Source: Polytrichum commune (taxonomy: Eukaryota; Streptophyta; Polytrichopsida; Polytrichales; Polytrichaceae). From it: DNA of 64,000 bases. The notes beneath the pieces were generated by a model. It did no database searches and was not told where the DNA came from. It saw nothing but the letters and a program-made list of their open reading frames with translations. Position numbers and translations under genes: made by a program. Shown in pieces: positions 3,101-63,226 of the stretch. The stretch's first letter is position 1, and every line of letters begins with the position of its first letter. Location: contig OX485807.1 in the NCBI GenBank assembly GCA_950295325.1, positions 23,841,666 through 23,905,665 of the forward strand. The letters run 5' to 3'.

Positions 3101-5954
3101 ATGTAGAAGGAGTGAGGCCTGTCATCACCGCTGTGTGAATGTATCCGGGGTCGTGCCATCCAAAATCATTGGCAGGATTAGACGCATTAGCTGCACACAC
3201 AGTGATCCATCCAAAATAAGAAATCCTGCCGATACATCATATGGTCGAGCTATATACAATCCTTCATTTCTTCCCATCTGTAGTACACTGGCTACTCTGC
3301 ATGCTTATAAAATTTCGTCGGTTAATGACTTACTAGAGGACATATCGATTTGAGTCCTGTCCGATTACACGTTGCTTAAATTACAATATTATTTGTCCTA
3401 CGAGATCTTACAGGACATTTGCGACGCTGTGAAGGTGGAAACGCTCGAATTAACGAGGGAGGCGCCATTGTATGCCACTTGCTGCGAGACACTGTCGCCA
3501 CTCACCCAGGTCAATCTCATCTGCCAATATGCCAAAAGACTTCTGTAAGTATAACTTCCTATGCAGCAGTTTGCAACTCAGCGAGGAGTCAGTCTGAGGC
3601 TATTTAGCACCTGACATGCATATATACTTATGTCGTACTTGATTAGGATGCTAGCCCATCTTTGATTTGTTGACATAAAGTGGAATAATTAGTACTACCA
3701 AGTAGTGGCAGTGGAGTCACAGAGGAACGATGGCCATAGAGTGGAGACTTAGGGTTGCCAATTTCCCAAAAGACTTCTGTAAGTACTTCTGCAACAATTT
3801 GAAACTCAGTTTGCAGTCTTTCTGAGGCTAATTAACCACCTGACATGCATACATATGCCGCAATTAGCATGCTCGATCTTTGTTAATATGCAACGCATAT
3901 TAAAATACATACCTGAGTGGCAGTGGAGTCCACTGAGGAAAGATGGCCATAGAGTGGAGACTTAGGGTTGGCAAACGGGAGCGCGGCGGATGTATTGAGC
4001 ACGCAAGGTACCAGGAAGCCACCCGTGAAGAATACGAAGGTGATGTCCGTTCGGATGTTGATCAACCGGAAGGTTAAGGAGCCACTGCAAGTGGTTGTCA
4101 AGCAATGTCCGGCCACCGAGTGCTGGCATGTGGACTTGTTACAGGATGTATAAAGGGGATCGTTTTCCAGCTTCTGGTACTGCAGGACCATTCATCACAT
4201 CATCAGACTCTTAAGACACCAATCTTATTGAGTTATGGCTGGATTTCTGTCAAAGCACTCTCCGCAGTAGGAGATTCATTTGAATTTTGAAGGATAGAGC
4301 TCACCACCGCACCGTTCAAAACAATGAAGTTGCTTCCTGTAAACTAAACTCAATAGTATAACCTATTATTACAATTTTCATGAAAGTTTGAACGCATTCA
4401 ACACAACATGACCTTCACTAAGTTAGAGCCCAGCTTTCCTCAGAAAGTAACCGGTTTAAATACTCTTCCATTAAGCAGGAAAGTGAATTTTCCTATGCAA
4501 TAGTTGCTACAGGGTGAGTTACGGAAGTTGACATGAATTGTATCTGCTCCAGATTAGAGAATGAAAAAGCAGGTTCGAGTGTAAACTGTGAAACGCATAC
4601 CTTGACAGGATAGTGACAGGTGTAAGGATTGGAGCTCGTGTCTCCAGTTTCAATATACAGCGCTGATACTGACAGACACTCATCCGTGCCGCTGGTTCCC
4701 AAACCCAAGCAGAAAGAAGCAAATTACATGAGCACCATAAATAATAACCTAGTCTGGTTTGCACAATGAATGCACGAGTGTCCAAGTTGATTGTTCCAGA
4801 AGTCCGTAGCTGGAGGTAGGGTATGATTTGCCAAGGATGATTTTCCTCACGGAATCCTCCATTAATTGATTCAAACAGGAAGCAGTACTTTGATCGTCTT
4901 GACCATTACGGAGTTGAGCTCTATCATTCCAAAGGAGGAGAGAAGTTCCTCCCTTTCAAGAGACTCCGAATCTTGAAGAAACTTAGTCCAAACTAACCGG
5001 TAAATTTTAGTAACCGTGAGTCATGCATAGGTTGCTACTACTTCCCCGGATTCACTGCAATTCTTGATCTCACTTGAACTGCACAACATGAACTTGGAGA
5101 ACACTATGTCTAACCTCAGCTACTGTATACTCTCAAGCAGATTGTTTAACGGGTCAAAACATCAACCTTCTACCAATTCAACTTCCAAAGCAACACCACC
5201 ACAAATCAAAGCAAGGCTCACTGCATCAATCAATTCATCACGAAGAATACTGCTTGAAGCTGAGTAACCGAGAGAAGGAAGAAAGTCTCAATTTGCGGTA
5301 CTGTAACGATGACATCTAGTCTTGATGCAGTAGTTTTAAGCCCGTAGTTCAAATTCCTACAAAATTTACATAGATCTTTCGGTTGAATCATCGTAGTTGA
5401 AGTAAAACTGCAAGCTGAATTAGTAACAGGTGAATGTGCTATCAAATTCAGGTGCATATGTGGAGAGTCTAATTAGTGCAATGTATTGCTCACTTGGCAG
5501 TCATAGGCGACATGATACCAATCCAATCCGAGCTGTCCGGGTTCGACACTCCGCTTACTGTCACGGTCACATTCTGCACATCCGCCAGGCTTCCGGAAGC
5601 ATCAATTGTCATGCCGATGTAAGGGTTAGGATCTTTGCACTGGGCGAGGTGTCGACGTCTATTGATACTGCTGAATACTTCATTCCGCAACACATGTTGC
5701 TCAGGATGTGATGGTATTCCTCCGGCAGCAGTACTAGCACTGGATGTTGTTGATGAATCATCTTTTGCCTGCAGCCTCCTTTCGACTGTGATGAATCCAG
5801 CACTCGGTTGCTCATGTTCTTTTGCAAATTCTCGCCCTGATGCTGGGTTCGTGCTCAGAATCATCAATAGACTGATGGTGAAGACGAACATAGCCATAGA
5901 CGAGTGCAGATTGCACAAACTAATTGTCAACATCGACTTCTTCATATTCGTCAT
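110..5954 (-). CDS. PAP: Purple acid phosphatase (PAP27/PAP1-like), 13 exons
   Basis: Binuclear metallophosphatase that hydrolyses phosphate esters, probably secreted. Exons in gene order: 5954-5494, 4691-4601, 4179-3913, 3520-3412, 3190-3079, 2831-2699, 2484-2306, 1819-1633, 1406-1339, 1135-1030, 793-602, 436-356, 160-110. All introns are GT-AG and all junctions keep frame, giving about 678 residues. Residues 1-40 look like a signal peptide (hydrophobic MFVFTISLLMIL, then ASG). An SSDWIG motif ends exon 1, followed by the fibronectin-like N-domain (CHYPVKYQ, MRLTWVSGD). The seven metal ligands of the family are all visible: GDMG (D376), GDISY (D415, Y418), GNHE (N448), GHRP (H537) and GHVH (H579, H581). 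Relatives are often labelled 'probable inactive', but no ligand is missing here. The protein is longer than Arabidopsis PAP27 (about 610), mostly because of a Ser-rich stretch after the signal peptide. The exon 6 end (before GTACAA) is the least certain junction. The start is the first ATG of exon 1; Met4 is an alternative. Confidence 0.9.
1887..2277. repeat. Direct tandem duplication inside PAP intron 7
   Basis: Two diverged copies lie side by side: about 1887-2056 and 2097-2277. Both begin TATGATCTCAAAGC and share TTTACTG-AATCTGGA and GTGGAAGATTGATTGG blocks. Both lie wholly within the intron between exons 7 and 8 of the phosphatase gene, so no coding sequence is affected. Confidence 0.8.
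3523..3969. repeat. Tandem duplication across PAP exon 3 / intron 3 border
   Basis: Unit 2 (3757-3969) contains the last 57 nt of real exon 3 (3913-3969) plus intron 3 sequence. Unit 1 (3523-3756) is a diverged second copy that runs up to the acceptor of exon 4. Shared blocks include CCAAAAGACTTCTGTAAGTA and GATGGCCATAGAGTGGAGAC. The exon-like part of unit 1 (about 3703-3756) has lost the CAG|GTATGT donor of the original, so it is probably a dead pseudo-exon within the intron. Confidence 0.85.
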
Positions 5955-7590
5955 ACAGCTGAATCAATTGTGGAATTGTTATAAGTTCTGCTGTGCAGGA
6001 TGTATAGACTAGAGCTCAAGTTTTTAGTTCTGTGCACTTACAAATTACATCCCACTCATGAAAATATTTGCAGCCAAGAGCCCGCCGTGGGAATGTAATC
6101 TAACACATGAAGCCGACTCCGATAGTGTAACATCGTATGTCTGGGAATTTTATACTATTTGGCCGACCTAGATTTTCGAATCCTAGATATGCTTCCATCA
6201 CTTCCATCACTTCCGAACCTTCGCCTTTGTTTCCACTTCCTGCTGCTTGAGATGACATGACAAGGCTAGCAGATTGCTACTATGGTGCCCATGATGACCC
6301 TTTGCCAAAGTTGCTGAGAAATTGTAAGAGTAGTAGTACTGCCGGCTTCTGTTGCTACGAAACCTCGAAGTTGTGTGCAACTGACTCGTCTTGCCACCGG
6401 CCGAAAGTTCTTTCGGAAAGCTCGGAAGAAGAAAGGAGCGGGAAGGTTCACGTTTGTTTTGCAACGACGGCCCGGCGAGCTCGCTTGGCAAACAGCAAGA
6501 ACAAAATTGGATTCTGCATGTAGTGCTTCGTCGTTAACCCCTAAACCCTTTTAACATGTTCATACCAATTGTGTATTCTTCTCTTAATACTCTCTTCATA
6601 ATGGATAACAACCAACTCCCTACCAAAACTCCGGTTGAATTAATGGATAACTCTAATATGTATCAGATATTGTTCATGAGGAGCCCTGCTATAGCTCGAC
6701 ATATCGACAAGATTTGAGATGGCGAGTGCTATGAAATGTGCATTAAACTCTGGGTGTCAAGAAGAACAACTTCGCAAAGACAACAAGCTATTAGTATCTA
6801 TCAAAATTCACATCAAAGTATTTAGTCATATTGTATAATCTCATAACATCGTATGTAGAGAGGCCCAAACCACGTTCCAAAAGTGTTTAGGGGTTCAATG
6901 GAAGGGATAAGAAGGACAATTGTTAAATATAGACTAAGTCCAAGTCCATGATTATAACATGTTGAGTTCTATCAAAGGATCCTACAATAGGATTGTATAA
7001 TAAGATCCTCCAATAAAATATGTAGAGTTCATTATGATAATATTATGACACGTGTTTTGATTATATAGTAAGATCCTCCAATAAATTATGTAGAGTTGGT
7101 TATGATAATATTATAGCATGTGTTTGGATTGTGTATTCTCTATTCAACATTTATTCTATAATTCACACAAAAACTAGAATTTCTTTTTCATCACATCTTC
7201 ACCCTTAAATGCTTAAGCAACCCGAAATGGGTTGCCACCTAATATTCTACCGGGTTTGAAATCCACCATGTGGCCATCTACATGGATGGTAAGGTAACTA
7301 CTGGTGTAGGGTGGTGCTCACTATCATGTGAGCCAAAATAACATGTAAAAACCTCATACTCCAAGCATGTAGGATTTTTTTGGTTGGGTTGGCATTGCTT
7401 GTTGTGGGAGGTGGTTCCATATGTTGCTCAAATGTAGGAGCCATATATAAGAGCCAATATCTTTCACATATGATGCTCAATTTGGGTGGGTATTTGTTCT
7501 CTTAGGATAAGGTGGCGGTTGTGCACAACTTGACCAGATAGATTTGAAAAAATAAACTTAGTGCACACTACACATGTTGCTTGCCCCCTG
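5955..7590. other. Intergenic, upstream of the phosphatase gene
   Basis: No gene recognised. The part nearest 5954 must hold the phosphatase promoter and 5' leader, but I cannot assign a TATA box with confidence. Around 6950-7120 the AT-rich phrase AAGATCCTCCAATAAA-TATGTAGAGTT occurs twice (about 7004 and 7070), a short direct repeat. Short open frames here show no family motifs. Confidence 0.5.
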
Positions 7591-8864: not shown

Positions 8865-9210
8865 CTTGTTTTCTTGATTGGGCCCCTAGATCTGATTGGT
8901 ATGTGGTTCAGTGAGGATCAAACACCCTGAAGACACATGTTTAATAGAGATTGGACTTCGTCGTCAAATATTAATACCCACTTTACATTCAATAATGAAT
9001 AAAATTGGGAAGACCTATGTATCCAATTAACAAACCAACAAACATGCACTTCCAATAACCATGACTAAATCATAAGATTTTTGTCAATTCTCAACATGAC
9101 TTTTGTCAATGTTTCATTGTAGACTTGGTAATACAACCCGAGTCTTATTGTGTAAATCTAATCGGTAGAAGTTGGGCAACACGAAAACTGAACCCAATTA
9201 CGTACACCCA
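8865..9210 (+). repeat. Dispersed repeat, copy 1 (partner at 44335-44705)
   Basis: Matches 44335-44705 in order and orientation: TGATTGGTATGTGGTT, GTGAGGATCAAA, AATTGGGAAGAC and AACAAACATGCACTTCCAAT, with scattered differences and small indels. It does not code for protein. Confidence 0.75.
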
Positions 9211-14308: not shown

Positions 14309-16701
<2,393 letters not shown>

Positions 16702-24200: not shown

Positions 24201-26342
24201 AATAACTAGATGGGTCATGGGTTCAAAGATAATTGTCCTACATGCCAATCGGGCACAAGGTGTCCAGTCAGATCAAGCTCCTCAATGTCTACAACAAGAA
24301 AGGAAACAATGAAGCCATTAAATTATTATTTTCATCCTCTAAGTCGTCTGAATTAACAAGGAACTACACATCCACTCTGACTTCACAACATGTATCTCCA
24401 ACAGATAAGACAGATACATAACCAATAAGAACTACCAAAGAGTAAATCTTTGTGTCATCTTCTTATAGAATAATGTTACTGAGTTGACCAATGTTGTCAA
24501 GGATTCACAGAAGCAAGCACTACTGTAGTTCAAAATAGGTGAATCTTTTTGAGATTACTTGAGGCAGCAGCTTTTATCTGTCCAGGCGGGCCAGCCCAAG
24601 ACACTCCTGCATATGCAAGAGCAGCTAATTTCAAAATATGCAGTTGACGCTGCCGATCTTCGACTTGAGTTTTTCCCACAAGCTCCACAGGCACTCGTAC
24701 TTTTGTTACACTGGAGAGAATGAACATGTCCTCTGCACGAATTTAATTCAAAACCGTGATCAGGGTTACCAAGTTCATTCTGTAAATTTCTCATTGATAC
24801 AGCATGGTTGACCAACTCTTGTACAAATTTACCACCCCTGAGATAGACTACCAACATACTGTACGAATTTCCAAACCATTCTCACAAGCATCATACAATC
24901 CCTAATTTCATAATGCAGAGATCAAAGCCAGAACTTCCCAAATCAACTACAGAGCACTTACCAACTATTACCATATCTCATTGATGAGCTCTAAATCATT
25001 GGCCATCCGATGACCACATTGTCATTTATACCAAATATATCTAGAACATAAAACTTTCAGCCTAACATCTCTCAAAAGATTTCATGATAGGATGAAAAGG
25101 ATTTTCTTTTAGCTTCTTTTTTGCAAGGGAAACTCCTTCGATCATATGGAAGTTGTGAGGGATAAGTACCCCCCGAAGAAAAATCAACGAAGGTTTGTGG
25201 GCCTTAGGTGGTCAATCTTCTTCATCAGACACCTAATATATACATATATATTTATGAATGGTATATGGCATGGGCTGTAGTCAAGAACGGAGACCAAAAA
25301 GCCACGTCTTACGAATGAGATTGGACTATTTGCTCAAAAACATAGAAAACGTTCTAGGTTCAAAAGTTAGCGCAATGGGGACTTGGGCTTATGTGATCAT
25401 TTTAAGAGAAGAATGAATCTTCACTTTGACGACCTTTTCTGTTTGCATCTCAACTCCAATTCTGGAACTTTAAAATGACAGTCTTTGTGATTGATCCCAA
25501 CTACTAACCGAATGAAACAAGTCCCAATGAAACAAATCCCCAACCGATCCTACAGCCAGAAATGTCTATGCAGTTGGAAGTGTCCACACACCTTAAGGTA
25601 AGCAGGTCTGTCAAGGTCACTTTTTCTACTTGGACTACTATATTTGAGTGGCGTGTGGGTAGGTGTGGATCTACGGACGGACACCAAAAAGGCAAGTGTT
25701 TAAAAAAGATTGGACTCCATACTCAGAATCTTCAAACAGTCAACATTATTGGGGGAACCTATATGACCACTTAATGAGCTCAAGAATCTTCACTTTGATG
25801 GTGAATGAGATATACACACGAGCTCCCAAATTTGTGAGGAAAATGGCTACAGCCACGATTTGTGTTTGTCAATCATCTCGCACTAATCGTGTGTTTCATA
25901 TACTTCGAAAAGTGGGTACAGGGCTAAAAGTGTCTATCTAAGGCTGACTTACCTTACCTTATAAGCACCCTGCACATTTGTCACTCGCCTGGTGTTGTTG
26001 AGGTGACTTACTTTGTGTATTCTCTGTGGGATTGGCTTTGTAACGGTTGGCGAGAGCGTCGAAGAGGGAAACTCCTGTGGTCAATGTATGAGGCCGCACA
26101 AAGGAGCCTGACTGGGGTCCACCGGTGTCGAAGTAGCGGACTCCATTAACGACGCCATTGTGGCGCGCCTGGCCGTTATCCCAGTCCACCCCCACCCACA
26201 CGCCCTGGAAACCATCCACGCAGCCAATATACTTCACACTCCCATATTGGGCAGTAGTGGTAGGAGTAATTTTCCCTGCTCCTAAACAAGACACTCGTTG
26301 GCCCAGCTTCAAGTCTGAAGGAGCCTCCGAATCAGCTGCCAT
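18249..26342 (-). CDS. TBCE: Tubulin-folding cofactor E (CAP-Gly, LRR, ubiquitin-like), 15 exons
   Basis: Cytosolic chaperone that binds alpha-tubulin and, with cofactors C and D, assembles the alpha/beta heterodimer; essential for plant microtubules. Exons in gene order: 26342-26012, 24732-24559, 24288-24242, 24045-23896, 22677-22603, 22411-22278, 22111-21987, 21777-21716, 21269-21162, 20847-20813, 20688-20620, 20407-20304, 18831-18755, 18554-18477, 18353-18249. All junctions keep frame; total about 557 residues (Arabidopsis about 530). The CAP-Gly domain covers residues 10-85 (GVWVGVDWDNGQARHNG). Leucine-rich repeats run from about residue 170 to 400 (LRLLNLEDNCLESW, LEQLYLSGNSL). A helical linker (VRPRERRDSEI) follows. 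A C-terminal ubiquitin-like domain spans about residues 470-557 (IIKKLPISTT, IGRLKVL). Exon 6 ends at a weak donor (AAG|GTTCCT), but the next exon continues the LRR in phase. The 1.5-kb intron 12 and 1.3-kb intron 1 carry repeats. A Met 21 nt upstream is also in frame. Confidence 0.93.
23015..23225. mobile_element. MITE with ~40-bp TIRs in TBCE intron 4
   Basis: Left end CTACACTGTTTTGCTAATTA is matched inverted at the right end (AATAGACAAAACAGTGTTAG); both arms continue through a GGTTACCATTTGGA-type block. The element is about 211 bp, AT-rich inside and without coding capacity. It lies entirely in the intron between exons 4 and 5 (22678-23895). Confidence 0.75.
25240..25945 (+). repeat. Dispersed repeat family C, two partial copies in TBCE intron 1
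   Basis: Two related segments (about 25240-25470 and 25650-25945) share the order 'GATTGGACT..., TATATGACCA/TGTGATCA..., AATCTTCACTTTGA' with copies at 29195-29400 (inverted), 40180-40410, 47290-47470 (inverted), 47620-47920, 60955-61115 and 63275-63450. No protein is encoded. Class unknown, possibly degraded LTR or MITE sequence. Confidence 0.65.
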
Positions 26343-29194
26343 GGCCTGCAGCCAGTACCACACGATACTTAATTAGTATCTCCAACTATTATTATGAAGG
26401 AAACCACGGTACTTAAGTCAACAGATGTGAGACATAATTTGAAAATGCAAGTGGCGTGCGTTTAACGTTGATGAGTCAGTGTGGTTACATACTCCCCTTC
26501 AGGGTTTAACATCCACCTATCTTCATAGTGCTAATTCATCTAATGCTTCACTCAACATGGATTCACCTCACATTTCATACTTGTAGACCTTGCAACTGTG
26601 AAATGTAGGAACAATGCAACCCTATGTTTGGTGGGCAATATTCCATGTTGTTGTTTGATGTGATTGAATAATGTGAATTCAGTGGTGATATTGTATGGAT
26701 CTAGAGGTATATGAGGGAAGTTGTTCTGGTATGTTAGATCAGATCAGATCAGTCGAAAGGGACCATAAAATTTGGCTCCAAGCGCATTGTGGAGTTGAGT
26801 CAATGCCACCTGCATGATGATGATGCTAATGCAGTAATTGTGAGGAGAAACAGATGAAATTGGCATAATATTGCTATTCCTATTGCTGGAAGATTTGTTG
26901 CGGACATGTAGATTAGTGAGCGGATATTTACCTCTTTCTTCTCAGCACGGGAGGAGCAACGATTTTCTTATAATTTCTTCAAATTGAACCGAGCTGTGTG
27001 AAGCTGCCCAATTATAAGTTTCAAGGTAACACCAAACCTCCCAAATTTTCCTCTAGTCTGCAGCTCAAGATTGGAAGGTTCGAAGTAGGGCTCCCTCTCT
27101 CATCATCCACAACTGTATTTCAAAGTGCTCAACATCCTAATTCCGAACAGCTCGAGTACTTTGGGATGCTTTAGTTTCCTCACATCTGCAACATGAGCCC
27201 CATGACAATCTTCCAATGTATTTGAATTCCTGTATCAGTAATTTCAGTATTGAAATCAGCAAATGGATCCAAGCACTTCAAGATTACATTTCTCTAGGTC
27301 GTTACACTTCAACTTGCAGCATGATAGGGCCTTGTGTTCACCTTAATATTCCTGCTATCCCAGGTATAAAGAGCATGGCCTATACCATCACAAGTAAAGG
27401 ACCTTCGGATCCCAATTCAGAAATAGAGTTTAGAAAACAGCATCCAACTTTCATCTTCACTTGGGGCAAATAAACGAATAAATGTGCTTGCCTGTGTGGT
27501 GTAAGAAACCTGTTTATGGCCCCTTCTGCCAAACACTATCGAGAGCCAGAAATCTCCTATGTCTGTGAATAAAGAGACAAGGGAAATGCATAGGGAATTC
27601 ATAGGGAATGCATGTGAATAGAACTGGGGGTTCAAGCGGGTACACGTAGATAACTACCCTCATAACGGTAGTTATCTTCTTAACGACCTCCGCTTCGCCT
27701 GAACTGTGCTTCTACTTCACTAGGTTTCACATGTAACGGCCAGAGTTCCTGCATTTAGGGTCCTAGTGTAACCGCTTCTAGAAATGTACTGAAAGCATTA
27801 GATGAGTTCCAAAATGTTCTCGTGATTTATCTGAAAGACTTCAATGAAGACCAGCCTCGCAGCCTCGCAAGGCAGCCTCGCAGGGGTACAATAGCCATGG
27901 CTACATTTTACTGAGGATGGCATGAGTGAAGTGGTACTTTCACAGGTGATTTCAACCCCACGTTATAGCAATGTTAATGCTAAGATACCAGAAATGGGCG
28001 TAGGAAGGAAGGCTATCAAGAAGTACAAATGTGCGACCACAATTAGAAACCAACAAGAGGAAGCTCAAAGAACACATAGAACTGAGGTCTTTACCTAATT
28101 CTGATTGTTGAGTCCGAAGCCTCAAATGTATGTTATTCCCTAACGTACCCTTATAAACATTCGTATGACTTCCAAGCAATGCATTTAGAATTGGACAATC
28201 TCCTTCTAATCATACACATGTACACTGCCGTACATACTCAATCGTGCTACGGAACAGGACGAGGCATGGTGCAGTGAAATGTTCCCTAGAGATGCTAACA
28301 TAGTTACGAGAGATAGCCTTTCCATTGAAGATATTCATCTGGCAACAAAGTAAAGACGAAAATTCATATCGTACAAACCGCGTAGGTTGACATTCTCGAG
28401 TCAGATAGACATTTGGACAATAACATTATTGCGTGCGAGAGGAGATGGACGTTGGTGGCGGAATTGTTTTATAACTGCGAGCTCATGAATTGCTGTACAC
28501 TTGAAACAAAAAGAGGGAAATTAACCCGAGATTGTCCACTGAAAAGGAAACATGGATGCATCAAGGAAGTTGCGGCCTACAAATCTTTTAATGTACAATC
28601 GCGAATATTTTCATTAGCATTCTCTAATATCAGCTGCGATATTGCTTGGAGGAATGAGGATTGAGAACATTCGTGATAGTGGCCGACAACAGCATTTGTA
28701 GAACGTAGCTTCCTTGATGCATCTGTAAACTTTGCACCCTCCATGAACACATGACATTAGCGATTCGTTTGATGCATCCATGCCTTCGTCATTGTGAGCT
28801 GCCAACCTTTGTAGGCCGCAGCTTCATTGGTGCATCCATGTTTACACGAAGGTGTGGATGCCTCAAGAAATGATGTTGACAGCAACACACGAATGGTGTC
28901 AAGTGAAAACATGGGCATGGCTATGATGCTGGAAAAGACCAATGAAATCTCTGCAGTGTAATCTGCAACTCGGAAACCATGGAAGCACTCAAGTTGGGCA
29001 CTCTCCACGAATGATCCTTGGAGAAGCTCATCCACTTAAAATTCTGTATGCTAAAACCCTGCCGAAAGGTGGCACAAATTCAACCTTCAGGCGAAGAGGA
29101 GCTTCATGAATGCGTCTTATTCTGTGTAATTACCCAATATTGAATCTGGAGCGACTTTCTGCGTAACCTCAATCCATCCCTCGCTCTTCTCTAA
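26343..29194. other. Intergenic, upstream of TBCE; no gene seen
   Basis: The segment next to 26342 must contain the TBCE promoter. No further gene was recognised. An 86-codon open frame at 27216-27473 has no motif I recognise and no convincing exon partners. An inverted repeat lies at about 28547-28586 and 28802-28845 (AAACATGGATGCA and GCGGCCTACAAA in both arms), with partial third and fourth copies between them, suggesting a decayed foldback or local duplication. Confidence 0.45.
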
Positions 29195-29400
29195 ATCAAA
29201 TGATCCAAAACATCTTAGCCATCATCAAAGTGAAGAGTCTCTCGCGTCTTAAATGATCACAATAGGCCTCCCCGATGATGTTGACTAGCTATGGAACCTA
29301 AAATAAGTAAAAACAATTGAGCATGTAGTCCAATCTTTTGTAAACACGTGTCCTTTTGACGTTCGTTCTTAACCACACACTATTCAAAAATAGGTGTGTG
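29195..29400 (-). repeat. Dispersed repeat family C (inverted copy)
   Basis: The reverse complement contains GACACGTGTTTACAAAAGAT, TGGACTACATGCTCAA and a terminal CTTCACTTTGATGATG, in the order seen in the 25240 and 40180 copies. Non-coding. Confidence 0.6.
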
Positions 29401-30096
29401 ATCAAGATTAATAACCAAATTAGGCACACTTGCCTAATATGATGAAAGATTGTTTGGGTTTTGGATGCCAAATTTGCAAAATCCTAACCCTTGCCATTGT
29501 TAGACATGCAGTATTAGCTAAAGGTTTATGTTCAATGTAGATAGATATATAGAAATGCGAACTTTGATGAGAGGCACACGTGAATGGAGAGTCACTTCGG
29601 CCACAAGCTACTGCCACCTTTTGGTGGTGGACTCTAAGTTCAATGTAAAATATTCTCCTCCTCTTATCATGGATTTAGGGTGCCCGGAATCACTTGTGGA
29701 CATGCTGATCAAGCCCTCGCATGTTGCCAACCCCTTCAATCTTGAGTGTGAGGGTGCACCACAGATTACGTGTGTCTTCTTGGTGTATGCCCTCTTCTTG
29801 ACTTCATAGGAACGACATGCTTATTGTCCACATGGCCGGAGCATTTGGCGCTCAAGTTGACCTTTTGCATGCTTTAATTGCAAGAGAAACTAATGTGGGT
29901 TACTCAAGCAAAATGTCCAACTAACACATAACTTTGGTGTGTGTACAAAATAAGTAGTGTGTCTCTCCATAGATTAGCTAGAGTGTACACCATGGAAATT
30001 TTTGGGAGTAGAATCCCCATTGGTTGTTGGGGGGCAAGAAGGGTTTATGAGAAGTAGCTAGGTTGGTGTTGGCTGCCAGGTGGTTGGCGTTGTATC

Positions 30097-31404
30097 ATGA
30101 AAAGGAAGGCAACGGTCATGCGTAAGGAAAATGAGGTATGCGGTGACAACAGACTATGGCTAGTGCATTCGGAACCAATGTTGGGTGTGCAATGCCTTGG
30201 TGTTCTCCATTCAAAGTCTATGGGTTGTCACTATAGAGGTTGTCACAAGTTTTTTGAGGCCTCTGTGACTATTGCAGTGACTATTGAGTGAAGTTGATAT
30301 TGATATTAGACTTCTTATGGATTTGAGGAGGTTTATTCAAGAAAATTATAATGTTGGGTTGTGCCCTTTTGAGATGGGTGGTGCTTTGACTCATAAGCAT
30401 TTCCAAATGATGGTGAAGGGCAATTTTAGTAGCTTATGTGTGTTGAACAACAATATCAAGGTGGCTTTGGATGGCATGAAAATCCTCCGATGGGTCATGT
30501 GGTATCTTATAGGAAATTGAGAGATCATGTATTGCATACCTTCTTGGGCATAATTTGGTATTGCATGAAGGACAATGGGGAGGATCATTTTCAGTTTGTT
30601 CATCACAATGTGTCTATCGATGACATGAATGAGGGTGAAATGGAGTATGTGAAGTTTGAAAAGGTCAGTCTAAAGAATTATGTTAGTTTGTCTTATAGCA
30701 ACACTCTTCAAAGGATTCATCAATAGGCACAATTTCGTATGAAGAAGCATAATGAAGTCTATCTTCCCGGTACTTTGTTTCATATGTTAAGAGTAGGCAA
30801 TTTTATCCAAACTATACATGGATGATTTCATTGAGGTCTAGAGCATGGATGTGAGGAGGGCTACTTTCATTTAGAAGATTATAATGTATCCTCGATCATG
30901 ACATTCAAATGGAGGATATTTTGATTTTTTTTTTAAACAATCATGGACGTGGTGAACACGAGGTATTTTAACTTGCAACAAATTGCCCTTGACCATAGGG
31001 TGGAGGAAAGAGAAATAAATAATACCTTGCATCATGATGATGATGGTCGTTTGAAAGAGGATAGAAGAGATCTTGCACTTCATGATTTGCAGTAGAGATG
31101 ACTAGAAGAAGATCTCCAAGCAAGAGTTGTTGAGGGTGGTAGCGATTGTTTTGTTGTGCGCATTGTGGGATATGTTGGAGAGGTTGTTGATGTTGTTGCT
31201 TACGACGCCAAGGTGGGCAGTAGGTGGTGTTGGGTTGGTAGCCTCAACCATGCATATTTGGCTTCCTCCGGGGTTCAACTCCGGTTTGCATCGGGGCAAG
31301 TTGGGTTCAGGGACGGCCTCACTGTTTGTCCCCTTGTATGTACCATCAACAAGTTGAAGGAGTCCAACGTAGAAGTAGCTTTGAAGGATTCCAATTGTAA
31401 ATAG
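30097..31404 (+). pseudogene. Decayed Rep-like (HUH endonuclease-type) transposon protein
   Basis: Broken coding region on the plus strand. One frame (30284-30520) carries GGALTHKHFQMMVKG; the His-Lys-His-Phe-Gln core (codons 30392-30406) resembles Rep motif II (HUH or H-L-Q type). A one-base slip near 30470 moves the reading to the next frame, where WYCMKDNGEDHF (Tyr codon 30559-30561) resembles Rep motif III (Y-x-x-K-D, the catalytic tyrosine). That frame reaches a stop at 30724-30726. It stays readable past several stops through YLPGTLFHML and an acidic/basic stretch to 31404. I see no clear motif I and no helicase Walker motif. Eukaryotic transposons with single-tyrosine HUH Rep proteins (Replitrons) and CRESS-type Reps are the candidate relatives. 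The identity rests on two short motifs. A Lys in the middle of H-x-H is atypical. Confidence 0.5.
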
Positions 31405-31596
31405 TTATGCTTGGCAATAACTTAAAGTTTTTTTTGGTATATATATCCATGACATGGGTGTTTTTGTTGCTTGTTTTTTTGGAATTTTCCAACAAGTAGA
31501 TGCTAATTTAATCGAATTGCCAATAATGAATTAATGGCCTTTTATGTATGTTGTGGGATGTTCATGTGCACAACTAATCATAGTGTGAATGGGTAA

Positions 31597-32630: not shown

Positions 32631-35600
32631 ATGCAGGCTCCTCATGGCCACCCGCTTCTGGCGCTATGTCTTAGTTTGCAAGTGGTACCCCGCACAGCTC
32701 ACCGCCCCGCTCATCATCCCACAGTTGTGACGCAAGCCAGCAGTGACCAACCTTATAATGTATGTATGCCTTCATTCTTCACCTTTGTTTCCTTTGTCCA
32801 GTTGTCTATATGTTATGAGATTACAAGATTGTTGTGAGATTCCTGAGTAGATTGTGGTGTGGTAGTAATGATATATATGCTCTTGCACGTGTGGATTTTC
32901 AGTGGCCCTAATATATACATTATAAGTTAGTGGACCATACACCCTGATGTCATCTTTGGGATGAATATCATAGCCACAGCCACTGCAACCCACAATATTT
33001 ATACTAAAAGGTGTGTGCCCTAGGGTAAGGCGCAAGAACTAATTGCAAGAACGTTCTATATCAATCACGAGAGATAGTAGTCTATGAATGTACACAAGGT
33101 CTTGTGCTGGATCTTTCGACAGGCCCTAACAATCTTAATTGGGCTACATTTGCGACTCTGGATAAGAAAAACTCATGTGGTTTGTCAATTTTCCAGAATT
33201 TGACACTTCCCACCTGCTAAATTCGTGTACAAGATCCCTGAGTACAACTGTGGAGTGGTAGTAAGGATATCCTCTTGCACATTTGGACTTTCAGCGCAGC
33301 TGAGTGAAGTCAGTGCCCCTAACATGTACATAATTATAAGTTAGTGGCCGCACACCTTATGTCACTTTTGGGATGCATATCATAACCACATCAACTAAAA
33401 CCACAATATCTGCACTTAGAGGTGTCTCCCCTAGGGTAAGGCACAAGAACAAAATGCAAGAATATTCTAGATCATTCACGAGAGTTCGGAGTCTATGAAT
33501 GTACACTAGGTTCTGTGCTCGGTCTTCGACAGGCCCTAATAACAATCCTAATTGGGCTAAATCTGCGATTCTGGATAAGAATCTCATGTGGTCTGTCAAT
33601 TTTCCAGAACTTGACAATTCCCACCAACAGTAGGATATTCCTCGGCTGAATTCATGTACAAGATTCCTGAGTAGATTATGGTGTGGTGCTCTTGCGATGG
33701 AACCACGTTTGGATTCTCAGTGCAGCTGAGTGTAGTCAGTGGCCCTACATATCCATGATGAGTTTGTGTTCATTTGAGGACAGTACACCTCGTGTCATTT
33801 TGGGGATGCAAAGTATAGCCACATTTAAGTGGAGCCCACAATATTTGCACTAAAAGGTGTAAGCACTAGGGCAAGCACAAGAATAAAATGCAAAAATGTT
33901 CTAGATAATTTGAGAGAGATAGTAATCTATGAACGTACACAAGGTTTTGTGCGTGATCTTTCGACAGGCCCTAATAATCCTAATTGGGCTACACTTTGGA
34001 CACTGGATTCCTGCACATGTAACTTATATGGTCTGTCAATTTCCACCAGCAGTAGAATATTACCCACCCCACATAAAGCTCTAATGGGAGGGTTTTGATG
34101 TAGAGTGGGGTTCACGAGTGCAGGGGTAGGGATTTAGCATTTGCCTACACTTGTCAGGTCGATTTTTGGTGACACTTGAATTGTCCAGCCGATATTTGAC
34201 ACTGGCTATTGCAGATTGCAGTGTGAACCGTCTTTGTTATTTCAGATTGCACAGTTGCAAGTCATTTTGTAAGTATACTTTCATGCAGAAGCATTTCTCC
34301 TTCTCATTTCGTTGTGCATCTGCATTACCAAGATTTATAGCTCTCTTCATCTGTATCACAGAATCATGAGCCCCAGCCAAGAAGGATTACTTCCAATGTG
34401 AAACGCAATCTGCACTTGCTGAAAATCTTCAAGGTAATATAGAGTTATGCATTCTATCCTTATGATTGACACATGCCACTCTTACTCCTGGTTCTTTTGG
34501 CGATGAAAGACCAAACTAGAAAGAGTTTTGTTGCTGAGTGTTGAGATAGGCTGTATTGTTGTTATTAACACAGCATCTTTTATTCTTCATTTGAAAGGAA
34601 TATGCAAAGAAGCAATCGAATTCTGCAAGGCCCACCACAAGTTACCGCAGGAAGAAGATAGAGAAGGAAGACCTGCCTGATGATATTGACGAGTACGAAG
34701 ACCCTACAACAAAGCTCTATTTGTAAGTTACCGAGCACTCCATCATGTTTCATACAAATGACATTTTTTCAGGTCCTTTTATTCTTCGAGGTTGTACCTA
34801 ATTCCTGGATATATTTGTTTGTGACAGTACAAATGATGGATTTGAGCTAGCAACTCCAGTGCTTCTAGTGGATGGTTACAACATGTGTGGATATTGGCCC
34901 AAGCTAAAGAAGCACTTTGCACGTGGCAATCTAGAGGCAGCCAGGGACAAGCTCATTGATGAGCTCATTACATTCACACACATCAAAGGTAATTCTAGGA
35001 ACAATACTTTGTTGCGTTAACTTTCATGCAGATTGAGGTAAAGAATGCATCATTCAATTCCTTGATCTCATCCTCAAATTCTTCTGCTATTGATGTGTCC
35101 ATGATTTCCTTCAGCTGAAGTTGCAGAAGCCTGGTAGTACTTGAAGTTCTTCTAGCATTGATTGACTTCTGTTACCCCTTTCATTGGCATTACAGGGGTG
35201 AAAGTAGTTGTGGTCTTTGATGCCGTATTGTCTGGGCTGCCAAATCATAAGGAAGTTATGAGCAGGTAATGCTGCTCTGAACTTGGCGGTTACAATTGGT
35301 GTCAGTGCAGAAGTAATAGTCTTTGTTGCGAATAACTACTTCCTGTTTCTACTTGAGACTAGCATAAAGGTTTAAGAAAGTTCTTTGTGCAAAAATACCT
35401 ACCATTTTGTATTGGGTATTTGTGAAATTTCGAGGTCTATGCAGACAGGTAGTCCAAAGTTGGACTCTTGTGAACAGATTGGCCACTTGTTGATTCTAGA
35501 AGATCTGTTGTGTGACAGTGTGGACATTGTCTATGCTGCAAGCACAGATTCAGACTCATGGATTGAGAGAGAGGTATTCATGTTTGCTCCACTCGAATGT

Positions 35601-40410: not shown

Positions 40411-41682
40411 GCTTCATTTGCAAATGCTAATGATATGAGACAATTCGGATCTGATGAAAATAGCTTGCAATAAGGTCACATACCTTTCAGTTAAGTGTTT
40501 GATTAAGATGGGTGAGCACACAAGCATGTGTCTGTTGACTGTTTAACCTAGTTCTTGATAGGTAGGAAGAATTGGAAACTCATCTAATATGTGGTGGTGG
40601 AAACAATTTGCATTGCACCAATCAGGGAATTTGTGCTTATTGTGGGCACTTCCAACTCTACAAACCAATATGATAATTGGGTCGGGAAGTAAGAGAACTT
40701 GTTATGCCATCAATTATAATTGAGGAAGAATGTTAATGAGAAATTACATTGCCTACGAGGCAAAGTGATCTCAAAGGGTGGTTAGAAACTGAGACTCGAT
40801 TCCTTCTTTGATAGAAAGTAGTCTCAAAGTGGTTATATTCCTCCATTGATAGTTGACAACAAGTTCCATACATGAAAGTGGGGGTTTCCTTCAAAGTTGT
40901 GCAACTATACCTCAAATGGTATGATCACGTCCAATATACAAAGTATGAGAATATGACGTGTTTCGGTATATATGTGCTTGATCCCTAATAAACGATTGTG
41001 GAGCCCTATTTGGGCCTCTCATTGCATATAGTATGTTGAAATTTTAAGAATGTGAATATAGAGAATGATGTGACATTTTTGATAGATAATTGTAGGTTGT
41101 TGTCTTGCAAGGTCATTTTTCTTGACACGTGAAAATGGACCAACTTGAAAAGGTTTTTATGAAAATTTCATATCATTCAAACTAAAGAGAGAATACACAC
41201 AACTAGTATGCGCATGTTGACACCATTTAAGCACTAAACTCCAACTATAACCCAGAATTAGGTAGCCCCATAAGACAAGCGAGCATAGAAGGCAAGCATA
41301 CCCTAAGGTATGTGGGTGTTATTTGGTTCATTCTTCATGTTGTCCAACTCCTACCGATTAGATGTACACAACAAAACTCATGTTGCATTAAAAAAAATCT
41401 ACGATGAAACATCTACAAAAACTGGATTGAAAATTTAAACCTCCCCCAATTTAGTTATGGGTATCAGTAGTGCATGATTGTCAATTCCATAACTAAATAC
41501 ATAGTTCCTCCCAATTATGGTCACTATCAAGTGTAGAGTAGTTAGTAATATTTGAAGACGTAATCCAATCTCTTTTAAACATGTGTCTTTATGATGTTTT
41601 CTCTTTGAGCCTCACTGAACCACGTACCAATCAAATATAAGGGTCCGATTAAGAAAACGAGCCACTTAAGACCCATCTATTG

Positions 41683-44334: not shown

Positions 44335-44705
44335 GTTTTCTCTTAATCAAATGCCTAGATTTGATTGGTATGTGGTTTGGTGAGGATCAAAGAGCAAAGG
44401 TCATAAAGACACATATTTAAAAACATATTGGCTACGTCTCAAAAAATTAATAACTACTCCACACTCAATAGAGAACACAATTGGGAAGACATATTGTATG
44501 TATCCAGTCAAGAATTCAACAAACATGCACTTCCAATAACTAAAAATACATCTAGGGGGGCCTTATTTTCAGTCCGGTGTTTGCATATGTGTCATCATAG
44601 ATTTGCTAATACACCACGAGGTTTGTTGTGTTCATCTAATCGGCAAAAGTTGGAGAATGTGAAAAACAAGCCAAATAACACACCCATGTACCTCACCACA
44701 AATGC
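44335..44705 (+). repeat. Dispersed repeat, copy 2 (partner at 8865-9210)
   Basis: Same block order as 8865-9210 (TGATTGGTATGTGGTT, GTGAGGATCAAA, AATTGGGAAGAC, AACATGCACTTCCAATAAC). It ends about 100 bp before the large TIR element at 44808. Confidence 0.75.
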
Positions 44706-45204: not shown

Positions 45205-45400
45205 GGTAGTTAGTTACAGTTGAACCGGTTGAGTTTGAGAAATAACCGGTTGAAGTTCCAAACTGCACAAAAATTACCGATCGTTTTAGAGGAATTCATA
45301 AAACATACCTCAATTTCATAAAGGAAACCCGGAGGATGTGAACATACAACTGGTTGGACTTGCAAACATTAGAATCTCAACTGATTATGCCCAAAAAACT
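45205..45400 (-). repeat. 'accggtt' repeat family, inverted copy
   Basis: The reverse complement matches 59590-59805 and 61385-61605: CATAATC-GT-GAGA, GTCCAACC-GTT, CAACCGGTTATTTCTCAAAC. Multiple AACCGGTT palindromes mark the family. It lies inside the 44808-46506 element, just before the satellite array. Confidence 0.75.
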
Positions 45401-45402
45401 CC

Positions 45403-46506
45403 CCGATCGATGCGCTTCACATGAGGGCCCGTGACCACACTACATGATTTTGGAAGTGTGTTGGGGCGGCCTTTGGGCACTTTCTCTTGGGCTCTCACAT
45501 CTTCATGGTCACGGCTCTTGGCTCATGAGTGAAGTGGTCCCCAATCACTGCACTTCACATGAGGGCCCGTGACCACACTACGTGATTGTGGAAGTGTGTT
45601 GGGGCGGCCTTTGGGCACTTTCTCTTGGGCTCTCACAGCTTCATGGTCACGGCTCTTGGCTCATGAGTGAAGTGGTCCCCAATCACTGCACTTCACCTGA
45701 GGGCCCGTGACCACACTACGTGATTGTGGAAGTGTGTTGGGGCGGCCTTTGGACACTTTCTCTTGGGCTCTCACATCTTCATGGTCACGGCTCTTGGCTC
45801 ATGTGTGAAGTGGTCCCCGATCACTGCACTTCACCTGAGCGCCCGTGACCACACTATGTGATTGTGGAAGTGTGTTGGGGCGGCCTTTGGACACTTTCTC
45901 TTGGGCTCTCACAGCTTCATGGTCACGGCTCTTGGCTCATGTGTGAAGTGGTCCCCGATCACTGCACTTCACCTGAGCGCCCGTGACCACACTACGTGAT
46001 TGTGGAAGTGTGTTGGGGCGGCCTTTGGGCACTTTCTCTTGGGCTCTCACAGCTTCATGGTCATGGCTCTTGGCTCATGAGTGAAGTGGTCCCCGATCAC
46101 TGCACTTCACCTGAGGGCCCGTGTCCACACTACGTGATTGTGGAAGTGTGTTGGGGCGGCCTTTGGGCACTTTCTCTTGGGCTCTCACAGCTTCATGGTC
46201 ACGGCTCTTGGCTCATGTGTGAAGTGGTCCCCGATCACTGCACTTCACCTGAGGGCCCGTGACCACACTACGTGATTGTGGAAGTGTGTTGGGGCGGCCT
46301 TTGGGCACTTTCTCTTGGGCTCTCACAGCTTCATGGTCACGGCTCTTGGCTCATGTGTGAAGTGGTCCCCGATCACTGCACTTCACCTGAGGGCCCGTGA
46401 CCACACTACGTGATTGTGGAAGTGTGTTGGGGCGGCCTTTGGGCACTTTCTCTTGGGCTCTCACAGCTTCATGGTCACGGCTCTTGGCTCATGTGTGAAG
46501 TGGCCC
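45403..46506 (+). repeat. Satellite array, 8 x 138 bp
   Basis: The phrase GAGGGCCCGTGACCACACTA, or a close variant, recurs at 45423, 45561, 45699, 45837, 45975, 46113, 46251 and 46389, exactly 138 bp apart. Units are nearly identical; variants include ACATGA/ACCTGA, GAGGGC/GAGCGC, CAATCA/CGATCA and GGGCAC/GGACAC. Each unit begins CACTTCACxTGAGGGCC and ends GGCTCATGxGTGAAGTG, so each is bounded by imperfect inverted repeats like the termini of the host element. Frames open through several units arise because 138 is divisible by three. Confidence 0.95.
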
Positions 46507-47289: not shown

Positions 47290-47920
47290 ACGTTAACGTC
47301 TAAAAATGAGATGGTTGGCAATTCCAAATTGAGGCTGTCATGATTTTTGGAGCTCGTCTAAATATTTGATTCACTATCAAAGTGAATATTCTCATGCTCG
47401 TTAAGTGGTCATCTAGGTCCCCCCCCCTCCAAGTATATTGACTATTGAGTTTAGGATGGTTATCATATTTTGACCACTCCACTCAGGTATAAGTGTTTGA
47501 TTAAGAAGAGTAACCAAGTAAGTCCCGCGTATCTTAGCTCGCTACCATTACTATGTAGACGTGCCTAATTTAGGAACTTATCTAAATCGAACACATGTAT
47601 TTGTGCAGTAACTAGTTGGGTGTGGATATAAGAATGGACATCTTTAAAAAATGCATGTGTTTAAAAGAAATTGGACTATGTGCTTGAAATTTGTTAACCA
47701 ATGTATGTTCAATTGTCAACATAATTGGGGGAGGACCTATATGACCATTCAATGAGCTCAAAAATATTCACTTTGAGGATAAGACATTCATATGAGCTCC
47801 AAAACATTATGAGGAAAATGGCTATGGCCACGATTTGGATTTGTCGATCATCTTGCACTAATTGTGTATTTCGTATCCTACAATAAGTGGGTGTAAAAGC
47901 TAAAAGTGGCCAAAGGTCTA
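47290..47920. repeat. Repeat family C, two copies in inverted arrangement
   Basis: The segment 47290-47430 read in reverse and 47620-47920 read forward share the order ACCTA-ATGACCA, GAGC-C-A-AATATTCACTTTGA and GAGCTCCAAA. Together they could fold into a long imperfect hairpin. Non-coding. Confidence 0.6.
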
Positions 47921-62474: not shown

Positions 62475-63226
62475 GGGCGGGTTTACGTTAGGATCCAGCC
62501 CCAAAAGACTTGGGGTCCAAAAGACTTGGTACATAATGGACCTTATAGTTGGACTCAAGCTTTGAGATTGGTATTCTCAAACTAGGAGGATGTTTTCTTG
62601 ATTAAGGACCATCGAGATTTGGCGTGAACTACATTGGGTGCCCATACCCATGCCCATGCCCATACCCACCCATGCCCATGGGTTTGGGTGGGCATGGGTG
62701 CAATATTATTGTTCATGGGTGGGCATGGGTGGGCATGGTTGCGATATTATTGTTCATGGGTGGGCATGGGTGGGCATGACTGCGATATTATTGTTCATGG
62801 GTGGGCATGGGTGGGGCACAATTACACAATCATACAAGACACATTACATAATTACACAATACACATTATACAATTTTTGAATACATGGGCGCAATTTGAA
62901 TAGCATGGGTGGGCACATGTCATGCTATGTGTAGGCATGGGTGGGCATGGGTGCGCACATGTCATGCTATGGGTGGGCATGGGTGGGCATAGGTCACTGC
63001 TGATGGGCATGGTCTGGGTATGGGTGCAATTAAAAAGGAAAATGTTGGGCTCTGGCGTGAAGTGAGGCCACATAAGCACCATTTCAAAACTTTAATTCAT
63101 AGCTTGGACTAAGATTCTATCATAAAACTTTGTTGTAACTCCTTGGATCCAAAACTTTGCTTGACCCATAGGATCACTCAATTTTAGGGTTTTTTTTTTG
63201 TCCTGGACCCTAGTATAAACCCACCC
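62475..63226. mobile_element. TIR element containing a GGGTGGGCAT minisatellite
   Basis: GGGCGGGTTTACGTTAGGAT (then CCAG) pairs with CTGGACCCTAGTATAAACCCACCC at the other end. Flanks are TGA and TAA, a near-match 3-bp duplication. 752 bp; the centre is the minisatellite at 62640-63020. Non-coding. Confidence 0.7.
62640..63020 (+). repeat. Minisatellite, GGGTGGGCAT-type units with a higher-order repeat
   Basis: Ten-base GGGTGGGCAT units and CCCATGCCCA complements alternate. A 57-60 bp higher unit (TTCATGGGTGGGCATGGGTG, then ...GCGATATTATTG) occurs three times between 62690 and 62815. The left edge (CCCATGCCC) is inverted relative to the rest, so the tract can fold back. Open frames through it are artefacts of the repeat. 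Confidence 0.9.

Follow-up and report, generated by a model that had tools for sequence, protein, structure and literature searches.

The broken element at positions 30178–31525 of the window (the whole 64,000-nucleotide stretch of Polytrichum commune DNA analyzed here) is almost certainly an old Replitron copy, now inactivated. Replitrons are eukaryotic transposons in which a single-tyrosine HUH endonuclease precedes the Replitron C-terminal domain. This assignment is based on sequence homology to the Replitron nuclease family and on many further copies in the same genome, all of those scored showing decay. The assembly comprises 407.8 Mb in 64 contigs, including seven chromosome-sized contigs (42 to 78 Mb, summing to ~406 Mb), and the window lies on contig C5. 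Loci designated by L-numbers (L009, L014 and so on) are relatives of the window copy in this same genome.

All parts of the element are read on the plus strand. The N-terminal piece (30178–30288, frame 1), placed from ATG positions in a DNA alignment of 21 copies, runs from an ATG close to the one in the other copies up to FEASVTIAV, the first strand of the HUH domain; its start is approximate, with a second ATG at 30192. The HUH domain continues in frame 2 with a piece carrying GGALTHKHFQ (30293–30469), which was located by its motif, by PF21859 and by 69% identity with L014 residues 14–72, and then in frame 1 with a piece carrying WYCMKDNG (30433–30723), located by PF21859 and by 54% identity with L014 residues 61–157. 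These two pieces overlap and the frame switches near 30469. Within them, HKHFQ (30392–30406, frame 2) precedes YCMKD (30559–30573, frame 1), confirming the two Rep-like motifs and the order in which a sequence-only reading of this DNA had placed them; on the relative L014, 56 residues separate the first H from the Tyr (H47, Y103). Past a TAG stop the frame resumes as AQFRMKKHNEVYLPGTLFHML... (30727–30822), a piece that falls within DNA similarity to L009 over 30299–31148 and occupies the place where relatives run into Replitron_C. It is followed by the C-terminal piece of the reading frame (30937–31083; 45% identity with L014 residues 229–277, E = 5e-10), a poorly conserved C-terminal tail (31102–31404; DNA similarity to L009 at 31100–31148 and 31330–31420) and the 3′ untranslated end of the element (31438–31525; 78% identity with L009 over 31438–31518). 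No Pfam match was obtained for the N-terminal piece by itself, the 32-residue continuation, the C-terminal piece or the tail.

The frame is more heavily damaged than the one slip and several stops originally described: three frame pieces are required to read the HUH domain, and the Tyr-bearing frame contains 7 stops across query residues 55–275. In a local alignment of the window copy with L009, 16 of 17 gaps have lengths not divisible by three; L009 is itself broken, and some of these gaps are its own. Both proposed boundaries had to be revised as well. Similarity to other copies begins not at 30097 but at ~30178–30195, near their ATG (the start codons can be equated only to within a few bases), and similarity to L009 continues beyond the proposed end at 31404 to ~31518. 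From the beginning of similarity to the 3′ end (30178–31525) the element spans ~1.35 kb, its 5′ end not being located.

Pfam represents Replitrons by two families, PF21859 (Replitron_HUH; curated cut-off of 28.5 bits) and PF21860 (Replitron_C). In the profile search that the sequence-only reading had proposed, piece 30433–30723 alone matched PF21859 above the cut-off (35.5 bits, E = 1.5e-8, profile positions 90–127 of 128). A weak match was found for piece 30281–30517 (14 bits, E = 0.064, profile positions 8–64), collinear with the first, and three pieces joined with X at the two breaks reached 53 bits (E = 5.7e-14, profile positions 3–127 of 128). Masking individual residues of the joined pieces removed 2.5 bits for the first histidine of the H-x-H motif (H1), 5.7 for the second (H2), 4.5 for Q, 5.6 for Y, 4.1 for K, 4.7 for the D after this K and 4.4 for the first G of GG; masking a distant Q removed 0.8 bits and masking the K between both H removed 0. 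Among the 147 ORF pieces scanned, out of 162 in the window with at least 70 aa, the one at this locus was the sole Replitron_HUH match at E ≤ 0.01. Short motifs such as H-x-H-x-Q are present elsewhere in the window, and open frames might resemble Rep motifs by chance, but given the E values above and at least 150 matched rows in the plant's own genome for an 84-aa window piece (150 of 182 candidates scored, with several rows at some loci), the probability of such a coincidence is vanishingly small.

Replitron_C was not detected in the window copy's own short pieces. Among eight relatives scanned, L014, L011 and L023 have both PF21859 and PF21860 above cut-off, L026, L015 and L025 have a Replitron_C match below cut-off, and L010 and L024 have no Replitron_C match; a helicase family was found in none of the eight. 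These scans bear on whether the locus could instead be a degenerate fragment of a Helitron (RepHel) that lost its helicase. HUH endonucleases are common to both groups, and that of Replitrons is called distantly related to Helitrons in a passage of a 2023 review (PMC10741241). However, Replitron_HUH is the only family above cut-off for window pieces, no helicase family appears among the 147 window ORF pieces at E ≤ 0.01, and some relatives run on into Replitron_C, aligned over one common layout. Together with the presence of one tyrosine motif, this upholds the earlier statement that the layout is not that of a Helitron, and we consider a Helitron origin highly improbable.

The same reading had named two candidates, an element of Replitron type and a CRESS-like Rep that had been captured, and only the first of these is borne out. 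Chromosomal integration of a CRESS-DNA (geminivirus-like) Rep gene is suggested by the order of the motifs, which resembles that of motifs II and III in rolling-circle Reps. Against this, Pfam gives Replitron_HUH, no CRESS or geminivirus Rep family and no Rep helicase family was found either for five pieces of the locus (E ≤ 1) or for the 147 ORF pieces (E ≤ 0.01), and Replitron_C is present in some relatives. Similarly, 24 pattern matches in viral contigs included 0 confirmed relatives, the best tblastn matches in plasmid and phage records (E = 3 and E = 2) were no better than chance, and a search of PHROGs gave chance-level matches only. Viral capture is thus a very unlikely origin for this copy.

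Conservation of the H-x-H and Tyr residues, which had been suggested as a check in intact relatives, was assessed in 28 broken copies, no intact relative having been found; these copies, used for both the residue counts and the tree below, are a non-random choice of mostly best-scoring matches. H1 and the Tyr are each kept in 24 of the 28, the Lys three residues after the Tyr in 23 and the Q in 22, and H2 is kept in 18, which is only about the column average. Over 253 columns the mean majority fraction is 0.66, and by conservation the Tyr ranks 24th, H1 28th, the Lys 47th and H2 153rd. Each of these catalytic residues is the majority state at its position. The window copy itself retains H1, K, H2, Q, Tyr and Lys. 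In the general HUH pattern a hydrophobic residue stands between the two H; the lysine found there in the window copy is present in 20/28 copies and is therefore a family trait rather than a product of decay in this copy.

Structure prediction was less informative. AlphaFold2 run on L014 with 41 aligned pieces produced a weak model (pLDDT 61.5, pTM 0.28) with a strand-helix-strand-helix start, and a fold computed from the window piece as a single sequence had no value (pLDDT 34.8). When the weak L014 model was compared with the PDB by Foldseek, no match reached E ≤ 0.001 and the best 50 of 333 matches included no HUH protein, a profile search of PDB sequences gave a single chance match (E = 1.4), and a PDB sequence search with the window piece gave nothing. 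An HUH fold is not contradicted by the weak predicted structure.

Searching the genome with PF21859 yielded 74 rows, 71 of them above cut-off (119 of 119 candidates scored), and searching 14 control genomes yielded 0 rows. The 289-aa open frame of L014 gave at least 144 rows in its own genome (135 of 389 candidates scored). Except for the L014 self-match, none of the 144 listed rows has an uninterrupted match without a stop longer than 179 residues (6–184), and no intact copy was present among the rows scored. L014 is not intact either, because reading of the sequences shows its beginning to be out of frame with the start of the other copies. Copy-to-copy DNA identity is ~65–81% over 570–890 bp among the best 120 rows, of which one, at 89.5% identity, falls outside the element. 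A tree of the 28 copies has long terminal branches and places the window copy as sister to L009 (support 0.98).

Across 79854 codon pairs from the same 28 copies, pairwise differences at codon positions 1, 2 and 3 are 0.313, 0.272 and 0.500, and we read the third-position excess as a sign that the protein was once under selection. Visible codon selection is also what recommends the idea of a domesticated Replitron protein gene retained by the host; the seven stops in the Tyr frame, the three frame pieces needed for the domain and the long terminal branches on which the 28 copies sit all argue against this, and we assign it very little probability. The window copy is no longer able to make the protein and now lies between two genes as neutral sequence. 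It is one of many old copies, all broken among those scored, of an already described kind of plant and algal transposon.

The earlier reading had also called for a genome-wide search for intact copies and their ends, and here the outcome was partial: in addition to the absence of intact copies among the rows scored, the 3′ end was recognized in 6 of 21 loci and the 5′ end was not found. The conserved 3′ terminus is an 18-bp sequence, TTAATAAAACACYCAATA, which is clear (≤4 mismatches) in L013 and L015 (0 mismatches each), L027 (one), L021 (two), L026 (three) and L017 (four). In the other 15 of the 21 loci, among them the window copy, the best match has five to seven mismatches, a level that shuffled sequence reaches or nearly reaches. 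In the window, the decayed terminus lies at 31508–31525 with 5 mismatches of 18, which alone is no better than shuffles, and similarity to L009 stops at 31518, inside a query extending to 31600. The exact 18-mer occurs 3 times genome-wide versus 0 times for a backward control, and two of the three occurrences are L013 and L015; extended to 21 bases with 3 mismatches allowed, the motif is found no more often than its backward control (342 versus 575). This looser search identified L052 (C1:45.22 Mb), which combines the broken reading frame with the 3′ motif. In some copies a G run and then a C run precede this motif.

A Replitron is expected to have direct terminal repeats of 5–11 bp, a target-site duplication of 2–8 bp and a length of 0.9–4 kb. 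Sequence upstream of the ATG region could not be aligned among the 21 copies, no consistent 9-mer was common to the upstream regions of 8 copies examined for terminal direct repeats, and no target-site duplication was found, the 5′ end being unlocated. A block 0.8–2.5 kb upstream of several copies (window 29201–29440) was tried as a 5′ end and rejected, as a two-strand search identified it as a separate dispersed repeat. The window contains ten more examples of this repeat, seven of them on the minus strand and three on the plus strand, with a unit of roughly 200–380 bp, for example at 8893–9067, 25615–25878, 41452–41657, 44360–44548 and 47309–47824.

Four further loci, L041, L046, L048 and L053, have their last 26–100 bp in common with one another, and no match to the L014 protein was found at E ≤ 1 in the ~1.5 kb before their termini; judged from their sequences, they may be non-autonomous derivatives. 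It is conceivable, though we think it rather unlikely, that the copies represent an extinct separate Replitron lineage, distinguished by the lysine in its HUH motif and by the 18-bp 3′ terminus, that mobilized these short elements. At L053 (C1:51485045 and 51485235), two Replitron-like 3′ termini of opposite orientation are separated by ~190 bp, and the L014 protein has no match near either.

The Replitron copy is flanked by a CAP-Gly gene and an NYN gene. The CAP-Gly piece (25962–26372, minus strand, E = 6e-18) appears from its reading to be the first exon of tubulin-folding cofactor E, and the YacP-like NYN piece lies at 34802–35017 on the plus strand (E = 3e-13). Purple-acid-phosphatase-like pieces were found on the minus strand at 2266–2622 and at 5493–5963, the latter below the family cut-off, and scans of the window for tRNAs and Rfam families were negative. 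The window also contains a tandem array of eight 138-bp units with 97% matches (45400–46503), three diverged block copies spaced 411–440 bp apart (32984–34042) and, at 14750–15284 and 62685–62994, a twice-repeated 270-bp unit together with short arrays of 41–42 bp units. On the coding strand of the element, G exceeds C (skew of 0.2–0.4) from ~29.8 to 31.4 kb, and the coding regions of the 28 copies have a skew of 0.22–0.43; codon content is as good an explanation for this as a boundary or a signal of single-stranded DNA, and we make no claim from it. Elsewhere in the genome, the dynein heavy-chain stalk (PF12777) gave 19 rows and GRAS gave 70, with several rows per gene in places. Angiosperms and conifers are not known to have dynein heavy chains and GRAS genes are numerous in land plants, so this gene content is likely to be that of a seedless land plant; seven chromosomes and ~408 Mb would suit a moss of the Polytrichales.

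By analogy with the Replitron family, the protein of the living element would have made a single-strand nick at the end of the element and remained attached to the DNA via the tyrosine encoded at 30559–30561. The element would then have been moved or copied as single-stranded DNA, its second strand being made by host enzymes. A passage of the 2023 review (PMC10741241) states that there was no software for annotating such elements, and a set of copies with a partly recognizable 3′ end could help to annotate Replitrons. Raw sequence in this case indicates that Replitrons were formerly active in this lineage, and the copies seen now are dead. The window Replitron leaves the general picture unchanged, and its novelties are small: an H-K-H motif, a 3′ terminus of 18 bp and the absence of intact copies among those scored.

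Compared with known systems, the window family has the order of motif II and then motif III in common with the Reps of CRESS-DNA viruses; it differs from them in that neither a match to a viral Rep family nor a helicase domain was found. With Helitrons it shares an HUH nuclease, and the G run and then C run in some copies may be set beside the hairpin shortly before the Helitron 3′ end that is described in a passage of the review (PMC10741241). Unlike in Helitrons, no helicase family was found, and the window family has one tyrosine motif and belongs to another Pfam family. From other Replitrons it differs in having no intact copy among those scored and in the K at the middle of H-x-H (20/28 copies), a position that is hydrophobic in the general HUH pattern. 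It resembles the Replitrons of Craig 2023 (PNAS, as given in PMC10741241) in several features: the window copy has an HUH domain with H-x-H and Tyr-x-x-Lys motifs, some relatives have the Replitron C-terminal domain, no helicase family was found, and the host is a seedless land plant, inside the range given in the relevant passage of that review.
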